Of a stretch of 64,000 nt of DNA, positions 39,337-55,677 are shown one piece after another. The notes beneath the pieces were generated by a model, which was not told the origin of the DNA, did not search any database, and worked only from the letters and a program-made list of their open reading frames with translations. This DNA is from Chaetoceros tenuissimus (taxonomy: Eukaryota > Bacillariophyta > Thalassiosirophyceae > Chaetocerotales > Chaetocerotaceae), in assembly GCA_021927905.1 (NCBI GenBank), contig BLLK01000022.1, positions 1,116,001-1,180,000 on the forward strand. The letters are read 5' to 3'. Within the stretch, counting starts at the first letter, position 1, and every line of letters starts with the position of its first letter. The translations under genes and the position numbers were made by a program.

Positions 39337-42141
39337 ATGATACAACTTTCTTCTTTTCTTAGAAAGAATGCATGTAATAATTGGAAAGTTGGAAGAAAAA
39401 TTGGAAAGAAACATGGACTATTCAAGTATGTAGCGAGCTTTTCAAGTGACATACGGAATAAGAATGCTGAAAATCTTCGTGCTATGAGAAGTGGTCAAAA
39501 ATTGAAGACCAATAAAGATGGTATAGATTACAGATATCGCTCTGGCTCAGCTTCTTCTCTCAAAGAACAATTGAATAAACCAATATCGGAGTATTGGGGC
39601 GAAGATGTCATTTCAGGAGAGAAGAAAAGACAGGCTATGAAAAAAAAGAATAATACAGTAGAAGTGGTTCCGAGTGCTGCAAAGTTTGTGTCTTTTTTCG
39701 ATGAAGTAGATACTAGAATGGAAACATCAAGAAAGAACAGGCTAAGTGATCGTTTTGAGTCTCGGTCGAGTGCAAGTGACAGTACAAGCGCCGCTAAAAA
39801 GAATCCTTTATTTGACTTACTCAACAAAGATTCTAGAGAGGATAAAAGGAAATCAATATTTGATGCTTTTCCACTCAATATAAAAGAACCAAATCCACTC
39901 GCATATGACAAGAAGATGTTCAGACATTATCAACAGGCAATGACTGAAGTATTGGAATCTGATAAGTTCAGACGAGCGCATACAAGGAAGCCAATCAAAG
40001 ATGATATATTGAATCCAATAATTGAGTGGTTGGTGAAGGATGAACAGTCTCTTGAATATAAATATGAAGCTATGGATGATGCTATCTCAAAAGGGATCAA
40101 TATCGATGATACCACACTTACTGGGAATCCCGATAATGATGACATGGGTCGGAAAAAGAAGAAGAAAAGGAGAAGGAAGGCATTACGAGATGAAGTATTT
40201 TGTGAAGGTAGTGAATTTCATAAATTTCATTCTCAACTGATGAAGCAGAGAATTGAGTTCATGGAGTCGACTGGTTTGAGCGCAGAGCAAATGGATATTG
40301 CAGAAAGAGCTATCAATTCACTTGCATCGAATTGTGCAAAATCCTCGAATAGCCTACCGCTCTCAATCGTTTGGGAGAAAATCAAAGAATCAGGATTTAT
40401 ATTATCCAATGATACCTTAAATGTACTTCTATATGTTTCAGGAACTCTAACTCATGGACTATTCTCATCGTCCATTAATAGTGGGTTTTCTTCAAATGGA
40501 AGGAAGAAGCATATGAGTGCTGTGATGTCTATACTTGGAACTGATGAGAAACAATCAGAAGAGCAGGAAGAGGAGAAAGAAAAAGAAATTATCGATTTTC
40601 CTACTGAAGTTGCATATTTCCATGATCTTTTGTACAATCCAACTGAAAAGTCTGTTAGCCTTCGGGTGAAACGTCTTGTCTCCAAGGGAGATGCAGTGGG
40701 AGCTGAAAAACTTTTGGATGCTTTTCCATCTACTGATGAAGCCAGGTTAAGAACATATCTACCAGTACTGAGACTTTATTGTGATCAAGGCAATATAACT
40801 TGTGCTCTGAAGCTTTTTCGACGCATGAGAGACTCTCAATTGGTTTTCCTCGAACCTGAAAATTACGTGCTACTCTTATCCACTCTAGCAGAGAATGGCT
40901 GCTTCAAAACGGACGCCAACCCTATTGATGGCATTGAAGGACTAGGATACAAAAATAATCGAGGGCCTGAACTTTTTGATGAATTGGCAGGTGAAATGGC
41001 AGAGGATGTACTTGAAATTTCAGCTGCTTCTGCAAGAAGACTGTACAATGCCTTAGCAACTGGTCTCGATGGAGAGAACTTTACAAACGAAGTCAAACCT
41101 ATCAATACGCTTGCTGGTGTTTCTACCAATAATGAAGAAGCTGCTGAGAGCGATTTGATTTTAAGCAGGGTTTCTGTTGATAAAAAAACTGCACTCTGTC
41201 CACGTTCCAGTGTTAAGCTGAGATTAATTAAGCTTGAGAAAGATCAGCAACAACAACTACATAAAGGGCTCATGGACTTGTCTGAAAACCAATACGAAGA
41301 ATTTGCACGTCATCATGGAAGGACGATGACTCCTCAAGACAAAAGCTATGCAGCAAATATGTTGTGCGAATTTTCATCGTGGTTAGAGTACGTATCATGC
41401 ATGCATTTATTCTTACAAAAACTTATTTTCACTTTTGAAATACTCATCAATTCTTTTTGCAGTACACGAAAGGGTGAACTATTCACCGCAATAGTTGATG
41501 GAGCAAACGTAGCATATTTTATGCAAAATTTCGCACAGGGCAAATTCAATTATTATCAACTGCAATTCGTAGTTGATGCGTTAGAAAAGAGCAAGGAAAA
41601 TCCATTGGTAATATTGCCATATAAATATTGCAATAATTCATTTGGAATAAAAATGGGAAATAATTTTATACGCCAAGTTTTGTCTCGGGAAGAAAAGGAC
41701 ATTATAAACAATCTAAACAAGAAGGGACAGTTGTATCGAGTACCCTCAAATTGTCTGGATGATTATTATTGGATGGTAGCATCTGTATCTAATCAAACGA
41801 CATCGAGACAGGGTAGAGATCTGGATGTGCCTACAGGAAATAAAGAGGGGAGATGGCCTGGAGCAAGGCCAATGTTGATTACTAACGATCAAATGAGAGA
41901 TCACAAATTAGAGCTTCTGGAGCCTCGCCTCTTTCGACGATGGACAAGCTGTTTTATTGTAAATTATAGCTTCACTGCATTTGTCGATAAGGATAGTTTG
42001 AACAGAGAGATTAGTTTCTCCGCAGCAGATTTCTTCAGCAGAGAAATACAGAGTAACCAATCTTCAAATGGAACAGTTTGGCATTTCCCTGTCAGTGATT
42101 GGGAACTTGATGATAGATTCTGTGTGAAAATACCAAAATAA
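39337..42141 (+). CDS. Protein-only RNase P (PRORP)
   Basis: Endonuclease that removes 5' leaders from tRNA precursors. Exons 39337-41387 and 41463-42141, 909 residues; the 75-nt GT-AG intron is a multiple of three and has no stop, so an unspliced read-through frame also exists. A basic N-terminal leader (MIQLSSFLRKNACNNWK...) suggests mitochondria. About 450 residues of poorly conserved charged sequence precede PPR repeats (VLRLYCDQGNITCALKLFRRM, then ENYVLLLSTLAENG). The NYN metallonuclease domain has AIVDGANVAYFMQNF, SNCLDDYYWMVA and LITNDQMRDHKLELL, supplying the expected catalytic aspartates, and ends HFPV...FCVKIP with the zinc His and Cys. The opposing zinc pair reads CPRS rather than CxxC, so one ligand seems missing. 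Confidence 0.92.
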   Translation: MIQLSSFLRKNACNNWKVGRKIGKKHGLFKYVASFSSDIRNKNAENLRAMRSGQKLKTNKDGIDYRYRSGSASSLKEQLNKPISEYWGEDVISGEKKRQAMKKKNNTVEVVPSAAKFVSFFDEVDTRMETSRKNRLSDRFESRSSASDSTSAAKKNPLFDLLNKDSREDKRKSIFDAFPLNIKEPNPLAYDKKMFRHYQQAMTEVLESDKFRRAHTRKPIKDDILNPIIEWLVKDEQSLEYKYEAMDDAISKGINIDDTTLTGNPDNDDMGRKKKKKRRRKALRDEVFCEGSEFHKFHSQLMKQRIEFMESTGLSAEQMDIAERAINSLASNCAKSSNSLPLSIVWEKIKESGFILSNDTLNVLLYVSGTLTHGLFSSSINSGFSSNGRKKHMSAVMSILGTDEKQSEEQEEEKEKEIIDFPTEVAYFHDLLYNPTEKSVSLRVKRLVSKGDAVGAEKLLDAFPSTDEARLRTYLPVLRLYCDQGNITCALKLFRRMRDSQLVFLEPENYVLLLSTLAENGCFKTDANPIDGIEGLGYKNNRGPELFDELAGEMAEDVLEISAASARRLYNALATGLDGENFTNEVKPINTLAGVSTNNEEAAESDLILSRVSVDKKTALCPRSSVKLRLIKLEKDQQQQLHKGLMDLSENQYEEFARHHGRTMTPQDKSYAANMLCEFSSWLEYVSCMHLFLQKLIFTFEILINSFCSTRKGELFTAIVDGANVAYFMQNFAQGKFNYYQLQFVVDALEKSKENPLVILPYKYCNNSFGIKMGNNFIRQVLSREEKDIINNLNKKGQLYRVPSNCLDDYYWMVASVSNQTTSRQGRDLDVPTGNKEGRWPGARPMLITNDQMRDHKLELLEPRLFRRWTSCFIVNYSFTAFVDKDSLNREISFSAADFFSREIQSNQSSNGTVWHFPVSDWELDDRFCVKIPK

Positions 42142-45040: not shown

Positions 45041-45439
45041 ATGAGATCTGTGAAGCAAATCATCCATGTTCTATCTCTCATCAGTATGATGATTATGTGT
45101 GAAGCTAGAGAAGTCACTTTGAGAAACAGACAAATGAAGAACTATGAAAAAAGATTGATTCGGAAGTTGAAAGGGTCCAAGTCTATGAAGGCTCCGAAAT
45201 CAAAGAGCGTAAAAAGTACGAAGGTTCCCAGCTTGAAATCCACCAAAGCTCCAAAGTCTCCTCCTAGCTTGAAATCTACCAAAGCTCCAAAAAGTAGCAG
45301 TGACAAGGGAGGACACGATGATTTGGATATGGATGCAACCTTGACAAGTCTCACAGTTGAAAGTGGAACTCAGGTAAAGATGATGTCGCCATATCTTTTC
45401 TTGGTGGTATCTACAGTTGCAACTTTTATGTTCATGTAA
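45041..45439 (+). CDS. Small secreted Lys/Ser-rich protein with RXL motif (SKS1)
   Basis: 132 residues from the ATG at 45041, chosen because it begins a clear signal peptide (MRSVKQIIHVLSLISMMIMCEA). An upstream ATG at 44885 would bury that peptide. Next come a short basic linker, RKL (fits RXL) and a tract in which Lys recurs with Ser, Thr, Pro and Ala: KSMKAPKSK, then KSTKVPSLKSTKAPKS and a second STKAPKS unit. After an acidic stretch (HDDLDMDATLTSL) the protein ends in a hydrophobic tail (YLFLVVSTVATFMFM), like a membrane or GPI-attachment signal. Signal peptide, RXL processing site and KxxK tracts are features of diatom silaffin-like biosilica proteins. This similarity is compositional; I cannot assign a function. 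Confidence 0.65.
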   Translation: MRSVKQIIHVLSLISMMIMCEAREVTLRNRQMKNYEKRLIRKLKGSKSMKAPKSKSVKSTKVPSLKSTKAPKSPPSLKSTKAPKSSSDKGGHDDLDMDATLTSLTVESGTQVKMMSPYLFLVVSTVATFMFM

Positions 45440-45923
45440 TGTGAAAGGTTTATAGCAGACGTTCTTGTGATGAAAATACAAAAAGTCATTTATTCTTATT
45501 ACATATGTTGAGAAATGTGAAAGAAAAGTTCAAGCTGGTGGTAGGAAATGTTAGAAATATCAAATGTGTTTTCGTAATTAGCAGTTATATATCTAAGAGA
45601 TATAGTAAAGTAAGCAGATGAGTATTAGCTAGAGTAATGAACGATAGTAAGTAGTACCTTACGAAAGTGTATCTATATAATAATCAAGCAATCAGCCATC
45701 CCGGAGATTCCCCGCCCTTTTTGGATTTTTAGTGCTAATTTTATGTAAAATTTATCTGTCAAAATTCAAATACACTGCTTAACAAGAGTGAATTTTTAGA
45801 ATTCAATCCAAAAGGTGCGCCAACAGCTACTCACCTTGTTTTGGTCAAGGGTCAAGAACATTCCACACCATTCGTTTGTTATAAAACGATAATACCATAT
45901 CCTCAAACCATTCTCTAGAAAAC
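45440..45923. promoter_or_regulatory. Promoter region of SKS2a
   Basis: 484 bp upstream of SKS2a, duplicated nearly unchanged at 47099-47584. A TATAAAA sequence lies at 45880-45886, 38 bp before the ATG. GGTGCGCCAAC at 45814-45824 is a one-mismatch match to an E2F half-site on the minus strand. The TATA-like box is the better supported of the two. Confidence 0.45.
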
Positions 45924-46301
45924 ATGAAGTCAATTTCATCATCCACCATTCTTTCTATTTTGCTGCTAGTATGTGCTTTGGTGCAGACCTCATTCGCTAG
46001 CAACCCAAGTGACGTAGATGCACAAAATATCATCGTCAGAAGAAGAGCAGCTGTGAAGAAAGTAAGAGCTAGAGGAAACAACCAACAACAGGCTAGAGTT
46101 CTCAGTAGTTCTAGTTCCAAGTCTTCCAAGTCTCCAAAGAGCATGAAATCTTCCAAGTCTCCAAAGAGCATGAAGTCAGGTTCTAGTAAGATGCCAAAGG
46201 CTATGATGATGAGTGCTGCAACTGCTTCATCTGATGGAGCAAAGATGGAGAATGTAATGACTGTTGCTGCCTTATCCACTGCAGCTTACTTTATGCTCTA
46301 G
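45924..46301 (+). CDS. Small secreted KxxK-repeat protein with RXL motif (SKS2a)
   Basis: 125 residues. The signal peptide is MKSISSSTILSILLLVCALV with likely cleavage after SFA. A basic spacer (IVRRRAAVKKVRARG) and a Gln/Asn run lead to ARVL (an RXL motif), immediately followed by SSSSSK and a strictly periodic tract in which Lys occurs every third residue: KSSKSPKSMKSSKSPKSMK. The 27-bp unit encoding SSKSPKSMK is present twice (46122-46175). After a short Ala/Ser segment the protein ends in a hydrophobic tail (VMTVAALSTAAYFML), like a GPI or membrane anchor signal. KxxK arrays with Ser are the sites of polyamine modification and phosphorylation in silaffins. Function here is inferred from composition only. 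Confidence 0.7.
   Translation: MKSISSSTILSILLLVCALVQTSFASNPSDVDAQNIIVRRRAAVKKVRARGNNQQQARVLSSSSSKSSKSPKSMKSSKSPKSMKSGSSKMPKAMMMSAATASSDGAKMENVMTVAALSTAAYFML
46122..46175 (+). repeat. Two tandem 27-bp units coding SSKSPKSMK
   Basis: Two copies of a 27-bp unit differing by one base at the end (AAA versus AAG). The duplicated gene SKS2b has a single unit (47783-47809), so unit number has changed since the 1.65-kb duplication. Confidence 0.9.
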
Positions 46302-46465
46302 GAACAACAGTTGAAAACAACTGTCTGAAATGAGTCGAGTAAAGATAGAGTTCAATATATGTCCATGTTGGTGAAAGTATACAGCTGTTTAAATTATATG
46401 TGTATACTCGTAATTTAGATTTCCTTCCGAGGAGATAACTTATAATTTGATATTGTGCCCACAAT

Positions 46466-46723
46466 TTACCATCCTCCGTTAGAATCCTCTCTAGGTACTT
46501 GTGAGCAACGCTTGTGCTTGTTTTCAGACCAAAAAGTGATTGTTTCATTTGCGATATCCTTACCCAAAGCTTTTGTCCCAATGCTGAAACTTTGGTTTCT
46601 TTTCCTTTTGTTGCAACCTTCCATGTGTATTTTACACTCTTTTAGAGCAGACTCTTCCTTCTCAAGCTCCTGTTGAGCTTCTTCAAGGAACTGTTTTTGC
46701 TTCAATTGTTGTCTAGGACCCAT
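46466..46723 (-). CDS. Hypothetical 85-residue charged helical protein, copy 1
   Basis: Complete minus-strand frame with ATG at 46723. The N-terminal half is rich in Gln, Glu and Lys with helical character (LKQKQFLEEAQQELEKEESALKEC); the rest is basic. I do not recognise the family. The identical frame occurs at 48100-48357, but because the duplication is recent this says nothing about selection. It lies between SKS2a and the FtsZ fragment. It may be a real small gene or a chance frame. Confidence 0.35.
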   Translation of the reverse strand: MGPRQQLKQKQFLEEAQQELEKEESALKECKIHMEGCNKRKRNQSFSIGTKALGKDIANETITFWSENKHKRCSQVPREDSNGGW

Positions 46724-46870
46724 TGTGAAAGTGAGACCAGGCAGCTAGCTCTCGGTGACCGCTGTGATAATTCTGTTACACTTTGATTGAGCCGTACGCA
46801 ATGTACTACTATTTACTTTACATTTTATGTTACATTTTATATAATTGCTAATATAGAATTTTTTCATCGA

Positions 46871-47061
46871 TTACAGTTGATCGACATAATCCCTGATATT
46901 TCTGGTTATCACTTCAGTTTTGAAGGATGTTGCAATCAAGGTTACTATAATTGCGTCATTAGCTAGTCTTTCATCGCAGTGAGCGCCGACGACAACGTTT
47001 GCGTCATTATTTACATTTTTGTTAATTAATTTGAGCACTGCATCAATTTTTCGTAAGGAGA
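46871..47061 (-). pseudogene. Truncated 3' fragment of the FtsZ-like gene
   Basis: The last 63 codons of the FtsZ-like gene (NVVVGAHCDERL...VDQL with stop) reappear here, with no start, promoter or GTPase domain. The fragment is a by-product of the tandem duplication and joins directly to the SKS1 3' fragment. It is nearly identical to 48505-48695. Confidence 0.92.
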
Positions 47062-47098
47062 GGTGGTATCTACAGTTGCAACTTTTATGTTCATGTAA
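47062..47098 (+). pseudogene. Twelve-codon 3' fragment of SKS1
   Basis: The last 12 codons and stop of SKS1 (LVVSTVATFMFM in part) lie at the start of the right duplication copy, joined to FtsZ sequence. Non-functional remnant marking the junction. Confidence 0.88.
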
Positions 47099-47584
47099 TG
47101 TGAAAGGTTTATAGCAGACGTTCTTGTGATGAAAATACAAAAAGTCATTTATTCTTATTACATATGTTGAGAAATGTGAAAGAAAAGTTCAAGCTGGTGG
47201 TAGGAAATGTTAGAAATATCAAATGTGTTTTCGTAATTAGCAGTTATATATCTAAGAGATATAGTAAAGTAAGCAGATGAGTATTAGCTAGAGTAATGAA
47301 CGATAGTAAGTAGTACCTACGATAGTGTATCTATAAATAATAATCAAGCAATCAGCCATCCCGGAGATTCCCCCGCCCTTTTTGGATTTTTAGTGCTAAT
47401 TTTATGTAAAATTTATCTGTCAAAATTCAAATACACTGCTTAACAAGAGTGAATTTTTAGAATTCAATCCAAAAGGTGCGCCAACAGCTACTCACCTTGT
47501 TTTGGTCAAGGGTCAAGAACATTCCACACCATTCGTTTGTTATAAAACGATAATACCATATCCTCAAACCATTCTCTAGAAAAC

Positions 47585-47935
47585 ATGAAGTCAATTTCAT
47601 CATCCACCATTCTTTCTATTTTGCTGCTAGTATGTGCTTTGGTGCAGACCTCATTCGCTAGCAACCCAAGTGACGTAGATGCACAAAATATCATCGTCAG
47701 AAGAAGAGCAGCTGTGAAGAAAGTAAGAGCTAGAGGAAACAACCAACAACAGGCTAGAGTTCTCAGTAGTTCTAGTTCCAAGTCTTCCAAGTCTCCAAAG
47801 AGCATGAAGTCAGGTTCTAGTAAGATGCCAAAGGCTATGATGATGAGTGCTGCAACTGCTTCATCTGATGGAGCAAAGATGGAGAATGTAATGACTGTTG
47901 CTGCCTTATCCACTGCAGCTTACTTTATGCTCTAG
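47585..47935 (+). CDS. Small secreted KxxK-repeat protein (SKS2b)
   Basis: 116 residues, identical to SKS2a except for loss of one nine-residue SSKSPKSMK unit. The signal peptide, ARVL motif, remaining KSSKSPKSMKSGSSK tract and hydrophobic tail are intact. The duplicated upstream region carries the same TATAAAA box, so it is probably expressed like SKS2a. Confidence 0.7.
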   Translation: MKSISSSTILSILLLVCALVQTSFASNPSDVDAQNIIVRRRAAVKKVRARGNNQQQARVLSSSSSKSSKSPKSMKSGSSKMPKAMMMSAATASSDGAKMENVMTVAALSTAAYFML

Positions 47936-48099
47936 GAACAACAGTTGAAAACAACTGTCTGAAATGAGTCGAGTAAAGATAGAGTTCAATATATGTCCAT
48001 GTTGGTGAAAGTATACAGCTGTTTAAATTATATGTGTATACTCGTAATTTAGATTTCCTTCCGAGGAGATAACTTATAATTTGATATTGTGCCCACAAT

Positions 48100-48357
48100 T
48101 TACCATCCTCCGTTAGAATCCTCTCTAGGTACTTGTGAGCAACGCTTGTGCTTGTTTTCAGACCAAAAAGTGATTGTTTCATTTGCGATATCCTTACCCA
48201 AAGCTTTTGTCCCAATGCTGAAACTTTGGTTTCTTTTCCTTTTGTTGCAACCTTCCATGTGTATTTTACACTCTTTTAGAGCAGACTCTTCCTTCTCAAG
48301 CTCCTGTTGAGCTTCTTCAAGGAACTGTTTTTGCTTCAATTGTTGTCTAGGACCCAT
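48100..48357 (-). CDS. Hypothetical 85-residue charged helical protein, copy 2
   Basis: Second copy of the frame at 46466-46723, with identical predicted protein. In this copy it sits about 150 bp downstream of the stop of the intact FtsZ-like gene on the same strand. Existence as a gene is uncertain. Confidence 0.35.
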   Translation of the reverse strand: MGPRQQLKQKQFLEEAQQELEKEESALKECKIHMEGCNKRKRNQSFSIGTKALGKDIANETITFWSENKHKRCSQVPREDSNGGW

Positions 48358-48504
48358 TGTGAAAGTGAGACCAGGCAGCTAGCTCTCGGTGACCGCTGTG
48401 ATAATTCTGTTACACTTTGATTGAGCCGTACGCAATGTACTACTATTTACTTTACATTTTATGTTACATTATATATAATTGCTAATATAGAATTTTTTCA
48501 TCGA

Positions 48505-50370
48505 TTACAGTTGATCGACATAATCCCTGATATTTCTGGTTATCACTTCAGTTTTGAAGGATGTTGCAATCAAGGTTACTATAATTGCGTCATTAGCTAG
48601 TCTTTCATCGCAGTGAGCGCCGACGACAACGTTTGCGTCATTATTTACATTTTTGTTAATTAATTTGAGCACTGCATCAATTTTTCGTAAGGAGAGGGTT
48701 TGCCCTCCTACAATGTTGACCAAAATACCATCTGCTTGTTCCAATGGCCCTTCAAGTAAAAGTGGAGATGTGAGCGCTGCCAATGTAGCATCTTCTACTA
48801 CGACTCCTGTACCCATTCCCATAAAGGAAATACCACCATCTCCCAATACACTCTTGACGTCAGAAAATTGCACTGTACAAATATCAGTTTTGGTGAGTAA
48901 GTCAAGTATTCCTACAATGACTTGATTTATAATTTCGTCAACCACTCGAAAAGATGCTTCTATTGACATTTCTACAGGAAGAATTTGTAGTACGTTGCTA
49001 TTTGAAATAACAATTACGGCGTCAGCAGTCTCACGGAGTATATCAACAGCATCGTCTGCTTCTTTCACAAGTTTTCTACCTTCAAATGGAAATGGTTTTG
49101 TCACGACAGCAATTGTTAGAGCTCCATTCTGTTTAGCAGCTGTACAAATTGCTGGTGCTGCACCACTTCCTAAACCTCGCCCTAGTCCAGTTGTGACGAT
49201 ACAAACCTCGGAGTCTTCCACCATCGTTGTTATATCCTCTAGAGACTCAGAAGCCGCAATCATACCCTTGTAAGTTTTTCCATTTGTTCCTTTGCCTCCA
49301 AGTGTTGAAGGTCCTAGGAGAGCTATATTGCATCCATAATCTTGGGACTGCTTTAAAGACGATGCATCACTATTCACTGTCCAGTATTCAATACCGTCAT
49401 TAATAGTTGCATATTCATCCATGAGTCTATTCAACGCGTTATTCCCACTATCTCCAACTCCCAATACTTTAATTCTGCATATTGTTCCTCCAAAACGCTT
49501 CATAGTATCTAGATCTTGTACTTGCTTTTGTGATTGGACACTTGGTACCCAACTTAAGCTCTGATCAATTTGTTTTTCCCTTGGTATTTTATTAGCATAG
49601 CGTTGAATTTCCTTTTCGTCCAAAATTGAGTCAAATTTATGCGCAACAATCCCATTGACATCAATGTTAGAAGATTCTTTATATCCTGAATCATTCTTAG
49701 GTGCAGATGCTCCATTTGCCAAAGGCGTTGTAGATGAATTCTTTGAGAATGTCTCTATATCGGTGTCTGTCATTTCTGACGTAGATTCTTCTTCTAATCC
49801 GTTCAGAGGTTCACCTAGCTCTTTTGGTTCTATAGTAACTTTAGATCCAAGTGATTTGTCCCCCAAGGATGATAATCTAAGTCCTTTCTCTCTTAATTTC
49901 TTTTCTCTTGTATCTTTCTCAGCATTGCTCGTTTTTATTTCATCATTAGAAGCCATGTCAATTTTTTCTTGGGATTGCTTCGCTGCGTGATTTTCAACTA
50001 CCAAATTTCTAGCTTTGACAGCACCAAGTGGCAAGAATTTCAGAGCCTTTGCCTTCTTCTCATCGTCAATTGGCTTCAAAGCTTTGGCTGGTTCGTCTTT
50101 CTTTATTTTTTGCTTGTGAAGAAACCGTCGCATTTTTCGTAATTCCATCTCTTTTTTGTCATTTATTTTTGGATCCGAATCTTTCGGCCGTAATGCTGAA
50201 CGTATCTTTTCATATTTGTTTCTAGGTCTTTTTTTCTTCTCATCATTTGATTCCCTATCAGAAGTCATTGATATTACTTTGCTCTTGTGTGCAAAAGATG
50301 AGGGTATTATGAAGCTGTATGAATTACATATCATCAACGCAAATAGTGTCAAGAATAAAAGGAAGCCCAT
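48505..50370 (-). CDS. Divergent plastid FtsZ-like protein (FtsZ-L1)
   Basis: 621 residues from the ATG at 50370. The signal peptide (MGFLLFLTLFALMICNSYS) is followed by FIIPSS, an ASAFAP-like plastid site. A Lys-rich, probably disordered region of about 290 residues precedes the FtsZ domain. Domain motifs: ICRIKVLGVGDSGNNALNRLM (T1 loop, canonical GGGGSNAVNRM), VNSDASSLKQS, and the tubulin signature as LGRGLGSGAAP instead of GGGTGTGAAP. Then come ALTIAVVTKPFPFEG and LLTKTDICTVQFSDVKSVL. In this T7 loop the Asn and first Asp of NxDxxD are replaced (Thr, Gln) and only the last Asp remains. A typical FtsZ C-terminal partner-binding tail is not evident. Probably a plastid filament protein with weak or partner-dependent GTPase. 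Confidence 0.9.
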   Translation of the reverse strand: MGFLLFLTLFALMICNSYSFIIPSSFAHKSKVISMTSDRESNDEKKKRPRNKYEKIRSALRPKDSDPKINDKKEMELRKMRRFLHKQKIKKDEPAKALKPIDDEKKAKALKFLPLGAVKARNLVVENHAAKQSQEKIDMASNDEIKTSNAEKDTREKKLREKGLRLSSLGDKSLGSKVTIEPKELGEPLNGLEEESTSEMTDTDIETFSKNSSTTPLANGASAPKNDSGYKESSNIDVNGIVAHKFDSILDEKEIQRYANKIPREKQIDQSLSWVPSVQSQKQVQDLDTMKRFGGTICRIKVLGVGDSGNNALNRLMDEYATINDGIEYWTVNSDASSLKQSQDYGCNIALLGPSTLGGKGTNGKTYKGMIAASESLEDITTMVEDSEVCIVTTGLGRGLGSGAAPAICTAAKQNGALTIAVVTKPFPFEGRKLVKEADDAVDILRETADAVIVISNSNVLQILPVEMSIEASFRVVDEIINQVIVGILDLLTKTDICTVQFSDVKSVLGDGGISFMGMGTGVVVEDATLAALTSPLLLEGPLEQADGILVNIVGGQTLSLRKIDAVLKLINKNVNNDANVVVGAHCDERLANDAIIVTLIATSFKTEVITRNIRDYVDQL

Positions 50371-50748
50371 GACTTTTCGCAGCTCCAATTTCCTCTAGAA
50401 TAGACTGTCTACAAGATTCCAATTCATGTGTTCTCTACCTTTTGGTGATGATATCAATAATCAAGTCCTATGTATGGTATGTTCATTGATGTGTTTTTCA
50501 AAAATGAGAGATCGTTTTGGTTTTTGGCGAAGAAGGAGAGCAGAGAGCAGAAGAGACAGTGGCGAGAGGAGGAGGTGACTGGAGCAAGGGGGGAAGGGGA
50601 AGAATTTCTTCTATAACGTTCGTGTCATTGGAGTACTTTTAGTACTTTCCTAGTCTAATCAAGCGATAGCAGTATTAAACATACCTATATACCTATATAT
50701 ATATATATTCAATAAAATTCTATTTTCGTCTATTATTAACAAAGTCAT
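50371..50748. other. Intergenic between the two FtsZ-family genes
   Basis: 378 bp, promoter of FtsZ-L1 and 3' region of the coiled-coil FtsZ gene. It contains a purine-rich stretch (about 50526-50605) and a TATATATATAT run near 50695-50708 at the 3' end of the upstream gene. Confidence 0.5.
50521..50532. promoter_or_regulatory. Weak E2F-like site upstream of FtsZ-L1
   Basis: TTTTTGGCGAAG about 151 bp upstream of the FtsZ-L1 ATG. It matches seven of eight positions of TTTSSCGS. It has the same orientation and distance as the stronger site upstream of the coiled-coil FtsZ gene. Confidence 0.3.
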
Positions 50749-53700
50749 CTATTCATCATCTTCATCATCGATACCTTGAACATTGAACGAAGTCGCTATA
50801 ATTGACACTGAAACAGTTTCATCTGGTAGGTCTTCGTTGATTTGTGATCCCATGACAACGTTACAATCCTCGCTAACATTATCATTGACCATTGCTAGAG
50901 CTTCATCTATTTGCTGCAATGATAGTCCTTTGCCACCAACAACATTGACTAGAACACCCTGTGCTCTATCTAGTGGAGCATCTAGCATTGGATTCGATAA
51001 TGCAGCCAAAGTTGCATCTCCTGCATCATCGCCAGTTCCAATTCCAACAACAGCATATCCACTATCACTCAGTAAATTTCTTACCCCCGTATAGTCAGCA
51101 AAAGTAATGCCTCTTTTTGTAAACATATCTGTGAGACCAATGACGACTTGACTAATGATTTCATCAAGAACTTCAAAGCATGCTGCGATTGGAGTATCTT
51201 CTGAAAGAATTTCAAGGATATTTTCATTTGCAATGACGATTGTTGTATCTGCAGTGTTTAGAAGGCGGTTGATTGCTTCTGATGCTTGGTCGGTTACCTT
51301 TTCTCCTTCAAAATCAAAAGGATCAGTAACTACCGCAATAGTTAATGCCCCACTTTGTTTTGCAATTTCGCATATAATTGGTGAAGCGCCGCTTCCAGTA
51401 CCACCACCTAAAGTACTTGTAACAATGCAAACATTTACTCCCTTGACGATGTTTGCAACATCTTCTGCAGATTCAATCACTGCCTTCTCTCCCAAAGTAG
51501 GATCCCCATTTGTCCCTTCCCCCTTTGTTATAATCTGACCGATTCCCAATGCCTGTATTCCTTCTTCTTTGTTGGAAAATGTCTTGATATCAGTATTAAT
51601 GAAGCAGAAATTCACTTTCTCATTTGACGTTGTCTGCACCATTCGAGCCATGGCAGATGAACCACCAGACCCAACTGCAAGCACATTAACATCAGAAGTA
51701 TCTGCGTCAAGATCAACGATGATATCTTCTTCAACAGGTAAATTCGACGCAGTGCTTTCTTCCCTTTCCAAAGACAAGGGATTGGCACTGTCAACTATAC
51801 TCTCCACAATAGCATTTTCCTGAATTGGCACAATTGTTTCTTCTATCTCATTTTCTAACACAGCAGAAGTTGGGATGATTTCTTCATTTTCAAATTGGGA
51901 GCTATTTTCTCCCAAAGATTCTGCCTGAGCAGCGGCTTCATACATACGAGCAACCTTCTCAGCAGCATCATTGGCAATACTACTCGTGGCCGATTCGTCC
52001 TCGTCGTCACTTGCGTCCGTGACAGGCTTAACACTTGTCCTCCTAACGGCTTGAGCTCTCATTCTTGCAACCTTCTCAGCAGCATCCTTGGCAATGTTAG
52101 AAACTTCATCCTCATCGTCACTTGCTTCCATGACAGGCTTGACACTTGTCCTCCTAATGGCTTCAGCTCTCATTCGAGAAGCCTTTTCAGCAGCATCCTT
52201 GGCTTCTTTCAAAGAATCTAGCTGACTTGTGAGATCAGTAACCAGTTGCTCCTTTTCAGATAACTCCTTGGTAAGCGATTTGACTGTGTCATCCGATGAA
52301 GATATCGCATTGTCCCGTTCCTTCGTCAAAGCTGCAAGTTGCTGCTCAGTCTCAAGTACCTTAGCCTCAAGTTCTTCTCTCTTTGCTCTTTCTTGTTCTG
52401 CCTTCGATCTAGCAGCCTTCTCAGATTCTTCTGCCTTGGTTCTACTTTCCTCGGCTTCTTTCAAAGAATCTAGCTGACTTGTGAGATCAGTAACCAGTTG
52501 CTCCTTTTCAGATAACTCCTTGGTAAGCGATTTGACTGTGTCATCCGATGAAGATATCACATTGTCCCGTTCCTTCGTCAAAGCTGCAAGTTGCTGCTCA
52601 GTCTCAAGTACCTTAGCCTCAAGTTCTTCTCTCTTTGCTCTTTCTTGTTCTGCCTTCGATCTAGCAGCCTTCTCAGATTCTTCCGCCTTGGTTCTACTTT
52701 CCTCGGCTTCTTTCAAAGAATCTAGCTGACTTGTGAGGTCAGTAACCAGTTGCTCCTTTTCAGACAACTCCTTTGTAAGCGCTTTGACTGTGTCATCCGA
52801 TGAAGATATAGCATTGTCCCGTTCCTTCGTCAAAGCTGCAAGTTGCTGCTCAGTCTCAAGTACCTTAGCCTCAAGTTCTTCTCTCTTGGTGCTAGCAGCC
52901 TTCTCAGATTCTTCCGCCTTGGTTCTACTTTCATTCAATGCAGTTTTTAATTCTTTTCGCTTTTTCACTTCCTCGACAATTTTTTTCTTTGCCATATTCA
53001 TTTCTTTTTCAGCCTCTAATCTCCTTCGGTCGACATCCTTTAATTTTCTTTCGGTTTCTTCCCTTCTTTTCTGTTCATCCACCAATTTGGCTCTCAATGA
53101 CGCCTCCTTTTTCTCTATCTTTAATTTTCCTTCCTTGAGGGATTTTGTTTTAGCCTCTGCCTTAATTCTCCTTCTCCTTTCATCTTCAAGTTTGGTTTTG
53201 GCCTCTTCATATGCCTTATCGGCCTTAATCCTTTCCTGGATAGCATTCTTTGCATCAACTTCAGCTTGTTCTCTTTTTCTTGTCTCCTCTAAAGCTTTTG
53301 CCTCGGCTTCTTTTACATTCTCCAGTGCCTTCAACTGAAGGTCGTTGGTAGATTCGACGTTGCTCTCAGTTACTGCTCTTTTCGCCCTTTCTTCCTCGGC
53401 GCTTTTTCTTGCTAGTTCTTCTTGTTTTTCAGCATCCAATCTTGCTTCTTCGCTAGCCTTCGCATTTGCCTCGGCAACTAGCTTTTCTTTTTCAGAAATA
53501 TCTCTTTGTGCTTCAGCTTTAATTCTGGCTACCTCTGCGGCCTGTGCAGTAGCCTCTGCCTCTTCTCTCTTTTTTATTTCCTCCTCGAGCTTGATTCTAG
53601 CAGCCTCTTGTGATGCTTCAGACGAAAGTCTTCGTTCCTCAGCATCCTGAGCATTTGCATCGGCCTCTTCTCTTTTTTGAATCTCTTCTTGGAGTTTCAT

Positions 53701-55677
53701 CAATGCTGCATTTTCTCTCTCTTCAGCCTTAAGCTTTTCCTCTATAGCAATCTTTTCGTTTGCCTCTGCAGATTTCCTTTTGATTGCCTCTTCTTCAGCT
53801 TTGACTTTTGCAGCTTCTTCTGCTTCAATCGCCTGTGCAATTTCTGCCTGAGCAGACCTTGCCTTTTCTTCGACTTTCAACTTTTCTTTTGTCAGAAGAT
53901 CCCTTTCTGATTCAAGTTGTCGTCTGGCCTCCATAGCAACATTTTCTCTATTCTCAGCATCTTCTCTCTTCTTTGATTCCTCTTCAAGTTTCATTCTAGC
54001 TAATTTTTCTTGCTCTTCAGCCTGAAGTCTGCGTTTCTCGGCAATCTGAGCATTAGCATCAGCCTCTTCTCTTTTCAATTTCTCCTCTTCAACCTTCAAT
54101 TTAGCTGCCTTTTCATTCTCTTCGGCTAGCTGTTGGGCTTCCTCGGCGGTCTTAGATATAGATTCCGCCACGGATTTTGCCTGAACCTCTATCTCTAACT
54201 TTTCTTTTGCTAATTTCTCCTTCTCGGATTGAATTTGTATTCTAGCTTCTTCAGTTTCCTTCAACTTTGCCTCGACTTCTTCTCGCTTCTTTTTTTCCTC
54301 CATAGCCTTTATCTTTGCTTTTTTTTCTACTGCTTCAGTCTTCCTCCTTGCCTCCTCCAAAAGGGCTCTCATCTTATCGACTTTCTCGGTAGCTGCCTTT
54401 GAGATGTAACTTTCTTCTTTATTTTCGATACTGGTGTGTGTATTCTTATCGTTTCGTATCTCGTTTTTCTCTTCAAGTTCCGGTGATATGTTTTGAAGCT
54501 GGTCCTTCTGAATCAAATCTTTTTGCTTCTGAAATTCTGTTTGCTTTGGATCCATTAGAGCGGAGTCTTGGACCATTGTATCATCGAAATCTGTGGAGAC
54601 TGCTGAGTTCTTGACTTCCACCTGTATCAACTCATCTTGCTTTGGATCCTCCGTTTGCTTTGGATCCTCTATTACACCAGAGTCTTGAATCACAGAATCT
54701 TCGACAAGAATAGAGTCTTTTTCGTTCTTGGCCGAAATATCATTAATGAAAGGCTTATTAATTTTCTTCTCATCCACAACTTCTTTCCGACTTTGCAGGG
54801 CAACTCTCGTTCCAACCAAAGCAACTGCGAAGCCACCCAAAACGCTGAATGGATTAGCTAGATCCATCATTGATTGCATTGATTTTCCATCATCTATGCT
54901 AGGTAATGGTGAAGAAATCATCTCCTTTGATTTTTTATACATTTCCATCATTGATTGAACAGATGCTCCATCGTCAATATTAGAAGGTGAAGAAATCTCA
55001 TCCTGTGGTGTTTCTTGTATCTTTTCCATAGGTTGCGATGTCACTTCATCAGTATATGTCGATTGATATGACGAAACGTTTTCCTCTATCTTGTGTTGAG
55101 GTGCTGAAATAGGTTCAGTTGATACCTCATCATCATTTTGACTTTGCGATGAAGACATCTTGCCTTGTTCCTTGTCGCTTGAATCCATTACAGATTGTTT
55201 TACCGTCTCATCTTCTGAATTGGTTGGTCCCTGAGATTTTTTCTCCTCCTCTTGCTTTGTTTGTGTTTCTGATGAAGATTCTGTAGGCGTATCCTCCTCA
55301 GCAATTGTTTGTGATGGAGGTATCTCCTCTTTCGGCTTTTCTTGTTGTTTGAGAAGCTTTTCTCGTTGAATTCTTTTTAATTCTATTTCTTTCCTAATTT
55401 GTGCTTTCTTCTCTTCAATTTCTCTCAGACGCAACGTTGCCTCGTCCAGGTCTTTAATACTGTAATCGACATTCCTATAAGGATTGCTACCATCACTCAT
55501 AAAAAGAGGCGGAGTTCCATATCTACTACATGGCTTTGGTTGCTGCACAAAACTTGTTGAGTCTTGCACCAATACAACAAATGTAAATGTGAAGAAGGTG
55601 ACTCTTTTTAATGAAGTCTTGAAGGATTTCGTACTCTCTATCATAGTCACTAGTGGTTCTTTACGGATCCTTTTCAT
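50749..55677 (-). CDS. Giant coiled-coil/FtsZ fusion protein, plastid leader (FtsZ-CC)
   Basis: 1642 residues in one frame, ATG at 55677 (a second Met at 55644). Layout: signal-like segment VTFFTFTFVVLV followed by DSTSFVQQP (ASAFAP-like site); a short coiled coil near 75-110; Ser/Glu/Gln-rich region; a possible membrane segment near 278-297 (FSVLGGFAVALVGTRVAL); coiled coil about 425-1155 rich in Glu, Lys and Ala, ending in three 84-residue repeats; two or three ASDDEDE-containing repeats; and an FtsZ domain about 1325-1642. FtsZ motifs: VLAVGSGGSSAMARMV (T1), INTDIKTF, STLGGGTGSGASP (intact tubulin signature), ALTIAVVTDPFDFEG and LVNVVGGKGLS. The T7 loop reads KRGITFADY, lacking the Asn and first Asp. 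I know no family with this architecture. It is tandem with FtsZ-L1. Confidence 0.9.
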   Translation of the reverse strand: MKRIRKEPLVTMIESTKSFKTSLKRVTFFTFTFVVLVQDSTSFVQQPKPCSRYGTPPLFMSDGSNPYRNVDYSIKDLDEATLRLREIEEKKAQIRKEIELKRIQREKLLKQQEKPKEEIPPSQTIAEEDTPTESSSETQTKQEEEKKSQGPTNSEDETVKQSVMDSSDKEQGKMSSSQSQNDDEVSTEPISAPQHKIEENVSSYQSTYTDEVTSQPMEKIQETPQDEISSPSNIDDGASVQSMMEMYKKSKEMISSPLPSIDDGKSMQSMMDLANPFSVLGGFAVALVGTRVALQSRKEVVDEKKINKPFINDISAKNEKDSILVEDSVIQDSGVIEDPKQTEDPKQDELIQVEVKNSAVSTDFDDTMVQDSALMDPKQTEFQKQKDLIQKDQLQNISPELEEKNEIRNDKNTHTSIENKEESYISKAATEKVDKMRALLEEARRKTEAVEKKAKIKAMEEKKKREEVEAKLKETEEARIQIQSEKEKLAKEKLEIEVQAKSVAESISKTAEEAQQLAEENEKAAKLKVEEEKLKREEADANAQIAEKRRLQAEEQEKLARMKLEEESKKREDAENRENVAMEARRQLESERDLLTKEKLKVEEKARSAQAEIAQAIEAEEAAKVKAEEEAIKRKSAEANEKIAIEEKLKAEERENAALMKLQEEIQKREEADANAQDAEERRLSSEASQEAARIKLEEEIKKREEAEATAQAAEVARIKAEAQRDISEKEKLVAEANAKASEEARLDAEKQEELARKSAEEERAKRAVTESNVESTNDLQLKALENVKEAEAKALEETRKREQAEVDAKNAIQERIKADKAYEEAKTKLEDERRRRIKAEAKTKSLKEGKLKIEKKEASLRAKLVDEQKRREETERKLKDVDRRRLEAEKEMNMAKKKIVEEVKKRKELKTALNESRTKAEESEKAASTKREELEAKVLETEQQLAALTKERDNAISSSDDTVKALTKELSEKEQLVTDLTSQLDSLKEAEESRTKAEESEKAARSKAEQERAKREELEAKVLETEQQLAALTKERDNVISSSDDTVKSLTKELSEKEQLVTDLTSQLDSLKEAEESRTKAEESEKAARSKAEQERAKREELEAKVLETEQQLAALTKERDNAISSSDDTVKSLTKELSEKEQLVTDLTSQLDSLKEAKDAAEKASRMRAEAIRRTSVKPVMEASDDEDEVSNIAKDAAEKVARMRAQAVRRTSVKPVTDASDDEDESATSSIANDAAEKVARMYEAAAQAESLGENSSQFENEEIIPTSAVLENEIEETIVPIQENAIVESIVDSANPLSLEREESTASNLPVEEDIIVDLDADTSDVNVLAVGSGGSSAMARMVQTTSNEKVNFCFINTDIKTFSNKEEGIQALGIGQIITKGEGTNGDPTLGEKAVIESAEDVANIVKGVNVCIVTSTLGGGTGSGASPIICEIAKQSGALTIAVVTDPFDFEGEKVTDQASEAINRLLNTADTTIVIANENILEILSEDTPIAACFEVLDEIISQVVIGLTDMFTKRGITFADYTGVRNLLSDSGYAVVGIGTGDDAGDATLAALSNPMLDAPLDRAQGVLVNVVGGKGLSLQQIDEALAMVNDNVSEDCNVVMGSQINEDLPDETVSVSIIATSFNVQGIDDEDDE
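51945..52200. repeat. Short in-frame repeats coding RRTSVKP-ASDDEDE units
   Basis: About two and a half copies of a roughly 120-bp unit within the fusion gene, encoding AAEKVARMRAQAVRRTSVKPV followed by ASDDEDE. They link the coiled coil to the FtsZ domain. The RRTSV core resembles a basophilic kinase site. Confidence 0.75.
52202..52932. repeat. Three tandem 252-bp repeats in the coiled coil
   Basis: Three nearly identical units (period 252 bp, 84 residues; the third, N-terminal in the protein, is about 30 bp shorter) encode TKAEESEKAARSKAEQERAK then LETEQQLAALTKERD, then SDDTVKALTKELSEKEQLV and LTSQLDSLKEA. 84 residues equal 12 heptads, so each unit keeps coiled-coil register. Base identity is high enough for copy-number change by slippage or unequal exchange. 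Confidence 0.92.

Follow-up and report, generated by a model that had tools for sequence, protein, structure and literature searches.

We report that a 64,000-nucleotide stretch of the Chaetoceros tenuissimus genome (assembly GCA_021927905.1, contig BLLK01000022.1, positions 1,116,001 to 1,180,000 of the forward strand; hereafter the window) encodes an FtsZ variant, P1, in which a divergent FtsZ domain stands behind a plastid-type leader, a probable membrane segment and a long helical rod. A second divergent FtsZ gene, P2, which was absent from the original prediction for this DNA, adjoins it, and the two represent sister branches of a clade derived within diatom plastid FtsZ. On our tentative reading, to which we give somewhat less than an even chance, P1 would be a GTPase-weak plastid FtsZ paralogue that joins the division ring and tethers it from its own N-terminus through a rod of about 100 nm.

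P1 was confirmed to occupy a single uninterrupted frame of 1642 codons with no stop, the strand being corrected to minus. Its parts are as follows.

50749..55677, minus strand: P1, a long open frame of 1642 residues comprising leader, membrane segment, helical rod and FtsZ domain (stop-free translation)
55546..55677, minus strand: signal-peptide-like leader, residues 1-44, with Phe after ..DSTS at a loose ASAFAP-type site (sequence, by eye)
54796..54852, minus strand: probable transmembrane segment, residues 276-294 (Kyte-Doolittle mean 1.60 over 19 residues, borderline)
52933..54402, minus strand: proline-free charged helix rich in Ala, Glu, Lys and Arg, residues 426-915 (helix predicted from composition)
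52198..52932, minus strand: heptad coiled coil, residues 916-1160, with units 77 and 84 residues (11 and 12 heptads) apart (periodicity)
51928..52197, minus strand: repeats with RRTSVKP and ASDDEDE motifs, residues 1161-1250 (111-bp tandem repeat)
50752..51702, minus strand: divergent FtsZ domain, residues 1326-1642, with an acidic end (Pfam, NCBIfam, AlphaFold with Foldseek and VIA)
51073..51114, minus strand: T7 synergy loop, GITFADYTGV, residues 1522-1535 (alignment)

The start ATG is preceded by an in-frame TAA, with two sense codons between. A genome search returned P1 as a single copy, and no paralogue of its N-terminal 444 residues was found in the genome at E 0.01. Codon usage resembled that of five other window genes more closely than random synonymous codons did in 7/7 segments, on both sides of the rod-FtsZ junction; GC content in the window is mostly 0.36-0.44.

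Within the limits of a single assembly the predicted architecture holds, but it had been overstated in two places, the 'complete FtsZ GTPase domain' and the '730 residues' of heptad-rich coiled coil. The FtsZ fold itself is complete. Both Pfam domains in residues 1326-1635 scored above their curated cut-offs (Tubulin, PF00091, 106.4 bits against 33; FtsZ_C, PF12327, 66.4 bits against 27), placing P1 in the Tubulin/FtsZ superfamily, and the predicted fold matched solved FtsZ (AlphaFold, Foldseek, VIA). The catalytic part is where the claim failed: P1 scored 237.7 bits against the TIGR00065 equivalog, under its cut-off of 295.2, and the T7 motif NxDxxD reads FxDxxG, with D1528 kept, Asn replaced by F1526 and the second Asp by G1531. 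Relatives were sought with the FtsZ domain (7998 candidates scored, 5811 under E 1e-10, the best 120 of the 5811 listed). The second T7 Asp is lost in all five members of the P1 branch, P1 included, and NxDxxD is kept in 114/114 ordinary relatives among the matches listed. The T4 GTP signature of P1 is intact (GGGTGSG), T1 is altered (GSGGSSA) and the Arg of EGRKR is replaced by V. The C-terminal core peptide D/E-I/V-P-x-F/Y-L was not found in P1, whose C-terminus reads ..FNVQGIDDEDDE; in the last 40 residues, a loose PxFL-type pattern is matched by 79 of the 114 ordinary proteins listed and not by the other 35. Because defining features of ordinary FtsZ, when tested, did not hold for P1, we class it from its sequence as an FtsZ variant and not an ordinary FtsZ.

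The neighbouring gene and its partial copy are as follows.

48505..50388, minus strand: P2, a second divergent FtsZ gene, 627 residues from TTG (Pfam and sequence)
48538..49482, minus strand: P2 FtsZ domain, with T4 GRGLGSG and T7 TVQFSD (Pfam, NCBIfam, alignment)
46871..47063, minus strand: truncated copy of the last P2 codons (inside a tandem duplication)

The first ATG of P2, at 50370, lies six codons past the TTG, and its leader is plastid-type by eye (..SYS-FIIP). P1 and P2 are 43% identical over the FtsZ domain. The P2 T4 sequence fails the GGGTG(S/T)G signature, and its T7 loop has the Asp that P1 lost but is without the Asp that P1 keeps. At its C-terminus (48505-48560), P2 carries an ITRxIRDYV motif conserved in all three P2-type proteins found, including P0005, one of the relatives below; the motif is a possible partner-binding peptide replacing that of ordinary FtsZ.

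Profile search of the genome found the tubulin/FtsZ GTPase domain at no fewer than 13 places and the FtsZ C-terminal domain at no fewer than 7, namely C29, C34, C14:894, C14:1855, P1, P2 and the truncated P2 copy. Places matching the GTPase domain only were taken as tubulins, one of them having been read. C29, C34 and C14:894 are ordinary FtsZ with plastid-type leaders by eye, and C14:1855 is a mitochondrial-type FtsZ that groups with bacteria in the tree. Ordinary FtsZ genes thus number at least three of plastid type and one of mitochondrial type; four FtsZ genes are named for Phaeodactylum in the available part of PMC7596299. The mitochondrial-type gene (L010, G000:C14, about 1853701-1857012) adjoins a frame with a dynamin-like GTPase sequence, EHD-type by eye. 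Exon-by-exon searches, in which divergent genes can be missed, did not detect in the genome an ARC6-like IMS domain (1/14 control genomes positive, Synechococcus elongatus), a MinE domain (3/14), a SepF domain (7/14) or an FtsA SHS2 domain (8/14). The ARC6 result agrees with a published table, consulted in part, that gives no ARC6 for two other diatoms (PMC4641359).

Among the 120 matches listed were six divergent relatives, two of the P2 type (P0003 and P0005) and four of the P1 type (P0004, P0006, P0007 and P0008). P0004, from a separate JGI record, shares 98% identity with P1 across 288 residues and starts inside the domain on a 963-base contig. P0003, with 587 residues, is identical to P2 at 90% of positions overall and 97% in the FtsZ part, and P0005 keeps both T7 Asps and the T4 Thr. 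All six are fragments or shorter proteins, and the rod is covered in none of them (0/6). Both P0006 and P0008 start with the Met that opens the main exon in C29 and C34, so a first exon may be missing from these two. A donor-like site at P1 codon 1532 was dismissed as an intron because P0004 has identical residues there and P0006 the same G. No relative was found in viral contigs, where the search pattern hit 93 stretches. As a separate observation, C29 and C34 (L009 and L011) seem to be broken immediately ahead of the Met in M-(L/I)-x-T-R, the point at which P0006 and P0008 start, which suggests an old intron position that these four share and that P1 and P2 lack.

A tree of 54 rows (six genes of this genome, the six relatives, 29 of the 114 ordinary proteins, 12 of 80 bacterial loci and B. 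subtilis) gave support of 99/97 for the P1 type, 99/96 for the P2 type and 100/100 for the two combined, on a stem of 1.3 changes per column. Topology tests rejected the 32 ordinary plastid rows as one clade (p 0.0024) and did not reject the 30 plastid rows without C29 and C34 as one clade (p 0.227). Removal of the mitochondrial row, two bacterial rows and the four fastest-evolving divergent rows left four divergent rows, which again grouped at 100/100. The two-branch clade is well supported and lies within diatom plastid FtsZ, its exact sister being left uncertain by the long branches.

Leaders of diatom plastid proteins consist of a signal peptide followed by a transit peptide with F at +1 of an ASAFAP-type site. 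The P1 leader has a hydrophobic stretch at 26-44 and a small residue followed by Phe (...VQDSTS-FVQQP), a loose match, judged by eye, to the ASAFAP-like site that had been claimed. The hydrophobic segment expected near residue 278 was located at 276-294, with a borderline Kyte-Doolittle mean. The 20 residues before it contain one K/R and three D/E, and the 20 after it five K/R and four D/E; by the positive-inside rule for the orientation of membrane segments, the rod and FtsZ domain would face the stroma. We propose a plastid location and membrane insertion for P1, both as predictions.

Residues 426-1160 (735/1642 residues, 45% of P1) contain no proline and one glycine and make up a predicted helical rod, but a coherent heptad pattern is confined to 916-1160. 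There, none of 1000 shuffles reached the observed hydrophobic periodicity at 3.5 residues, a figure inflated by internal repeats; over the full length of 426-915 the periodicity was not outstanding (269/1000 shuffles as high), with several single 56-residue windows standing out. The heptad region includes a 252-bp tandem repeat (2.7 copies, 97% matches), two units of which differ in 3/84 codons, two of these changing the residue; the repeats are near-identical and in register. At a helix rise of about 0.148 nm per residue, a fully helical rod would be about 109 nm long.

The reading that fits these features best is that of an FtsZ that supplies its own N-terminal tether and spacer. Encoded in the nucleus and imported into the plastid, P1 would join the stromal Z ring built by the ordinary plastid-type FtsZs, and its own N-terminal membrane segment would hold it at the inner envelope through the rigid rod. 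Its FtsZ domain would still bind GTP and stack into the protofilament. Since its T7 loop is proposed to hydrolyse poorly, P1 would act as a slow-turnover, stabilising subunit that links the filament to the membrane from the N-terminal side; the link is placed there because the C-terminal peptide is absent and all parts that could reach a membrane lie N-terminal. The self-tethering reading gains some weight from the T7 change throughout the P1 branch, from the missing peptide and from the failure to detect ARC6, SepF and FtsA domains in the genome.

Set beside known systems, P1 shares the FtsZ fold and, judged by eye, a plastid-type leader with ordinary diatom plastid FtsZ (C14:894 and its relatives), among which its clade falls. 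Whereas C14:894 has 418 residues, keeps NVDFAD and ends in FPDFLGGR, P1 carries about 1320 extra residues in front and is without NxDxxD and the C-terminal core peptide. The membrane link of an ordinary FtsZ leaves from its C-terminus. A natural comparison is with plant FtsZ1 and red algal FtsZB, which like P1 are second plastid FtsZs without the core peptide. FtsZ1 hydrolyses GTP and raises turnover; for P1, by contrast, little GTPase activity is predicted, and it brings a membrane segment and a rod of its own. FtsZ1 and FtsZB are thought to co-assemble with peptide-bearing FtsZ, according to the accessible parts of PMC8142252 and PMC4641359, and in the sedimentation tests described there by PMC8142252 co-assembly was not directly shown. 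ARC6, the inner-envelope Z ring tether in Arabidopsis (PMC4641359, in part), differs from P1 in that it is not part of FtsZ but a protein of its own, which binds the C-terminal peptide of FtsZ2; a Pfam scan gave no match to its IMS domain in P1 either. Laboratory mts-FtsZ chimeras are, like P1 as proposed, attached to the membrane by their N-terminal side, but through an artificial short membrane-targeting sequence, with no long rod and an ordinary FtsZ domain; with such N-terminal anchoring, rings had opposite chirality, and the constructs are cited as bending membranes outward, not inward (PMC5979038, available text). The original prediction knew of no described protein with the P1 architecture, and none turned up in the open-access literature searched; no FtsZ with a long N-terminal rod appeared there, including the accessible portions of PMC4641359, PMC4164004, PMC8027222, PMC7596299 and PMC6787086. 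The main text of a 2025 C. tenuissimus transcriptome paper contains no occurrence of FtsZ.

Several points weigh against self-tethering. The membrane segment is only borderline, and two thirds of the rod are without a coherent heptad pattern. GTP binding may be weak, because the Arg of EGRKR is lost and T1 is altered. The fusion of rod and FtsZ domain is seen in one assembly only: a search for full-length relatives of 903-2873 aa scored 7984 candidates and yielded none at E 1e-3 (about 590-903 aa lay outside the search), and P0007, within the P1 branch, has some 70 residues before its FtsZ domain that are not rod-like by eye, although the record may be cut. In E. coli, according to the available text of PMC4383033, a gap of 16 nm separates FtsZ filaments from the inner membrane, a distance that a rod of about 100 nm would greatly exceed. 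A missing C-terminal peptide alone is not unusual, being shared by FtsZ1, FtsZB and FtsZC (PMC4641359, in part).

We also weighed other roles for the protein. P1 could be a regulator resembling ARC3, in which a degenerate FtsZ domain would bind ordinary FtsZ and cap or shorten filaments while the rod and membrane segment place the inhibitor off the division site; we consider this unlikely. ARC3 carries an FtsZ-like domain fused to another part and, as proposed for P1, is a plastid division protein that interacts with FtsZ. The altered T7 and T1 loops would suit such a role, and with no MinE domain detected in the genome, another positioning factor may be needed. ARC3, a negative regulator, differs in bearing a MORN repeat in its C-terminal part, to which a Pfam scan found no match in P1 up to E 1. 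Moreover, GGGTGSG is intact, and loss of the second T7 Asp is, in the published work available in part, a kind of change still permitting assembly in E. coli FtsZ. In plants, ARC3 is a stromal protein that interacts with both FtsZs and inhibits assembly (PMC5471200, accessible text).

It is also rather improbable that P1, perhaps with P2, builds a separate, non-division structure such as a skeleton of the stroma or thylakoids, the rod being the chief functional part. The share of the protein taken up by the rod, its near-identical, in-register heptad repeats and the three ordinary plastid-type FtsZs already available for division would be in keeping with this, but nothing points to any specific other structure, and an FtsZ domain 98% identical to P0004 over 288 residues is unlikely to be a mere leftover.

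By analogy with tubulin, P1 and P2 might instead form an obligate pair in a mixed plastid filament, each completing the active site of the other, a model we regard as quite improbable. It rests on P1 keeping the GTP pocket signature and the first T7 Asp and on P2 having the second T7 Asp; P1 would complement the pocket signature and first T7 Asp that P2 lost, and its rod and membrane segment would hold a second, slow-turnover filament about 100 nm from the inner envelope, replacing ARC6-type tethering. P0005, of the P2 type, keeps both Asps and the T4 Thr, which argues against a strict pair.

That the gene is decaying, as a tandem FtsZ copy on its way to losing function, or artefactual, its frame having been joined through misassembly or an intron that went unrecognised, is likewise quite improbable: the long clade stem, the adjoining tandem duplications and the lack of an independent full-length copy in the 903-2873 aa searched would allow it, but the 1642 stop-free codons, the coding-like codon usage in every segment and on both sides of the junction (which leaves misassembly or a fused pseudogene unsupported), the recovery of both branches in other records and the 97% identity of P2 to P0003 in the FtsZ part speak against it.

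With its own putative membrane segment and rod, P1 would be a direct candidate answer to the question of how diatom plastids attach their Z ring to the membrane. If the self-tethering reading is true, P1 would be a natural case of N-terminal anchoring, and its branch would be one of natural FtsZs that lack the second catalytic Asp. Whatever its function, a two-branch clade within diatom plastid FtsZ provides new material for the evolution of plastid division.

Beyond P2, the window contains a direct tandem duplication (45403-47063 and 47062-48697, 1.66 kb, 98% identical) that copied the P2 end. A third FtsZ match, at 46922-47065, was rejected as a further gene, being the truncated tandem copy of that end. 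The duplication also copied a small plus-strand frame (45924-46301 and 47585-47935, 125 and 116 aa), the product of which has a signal-peptide-like start, a Ser/Lys-rich SKSSKSPKSMKS stretch and a hydrophobic tail and is possibly secreted or wall-related, judging from these features. Elsewhere in the window, a plus-strand frame at 39337-42141 encodes 934 aa that include PPR and protein-only RNase P (PRORP) domains.
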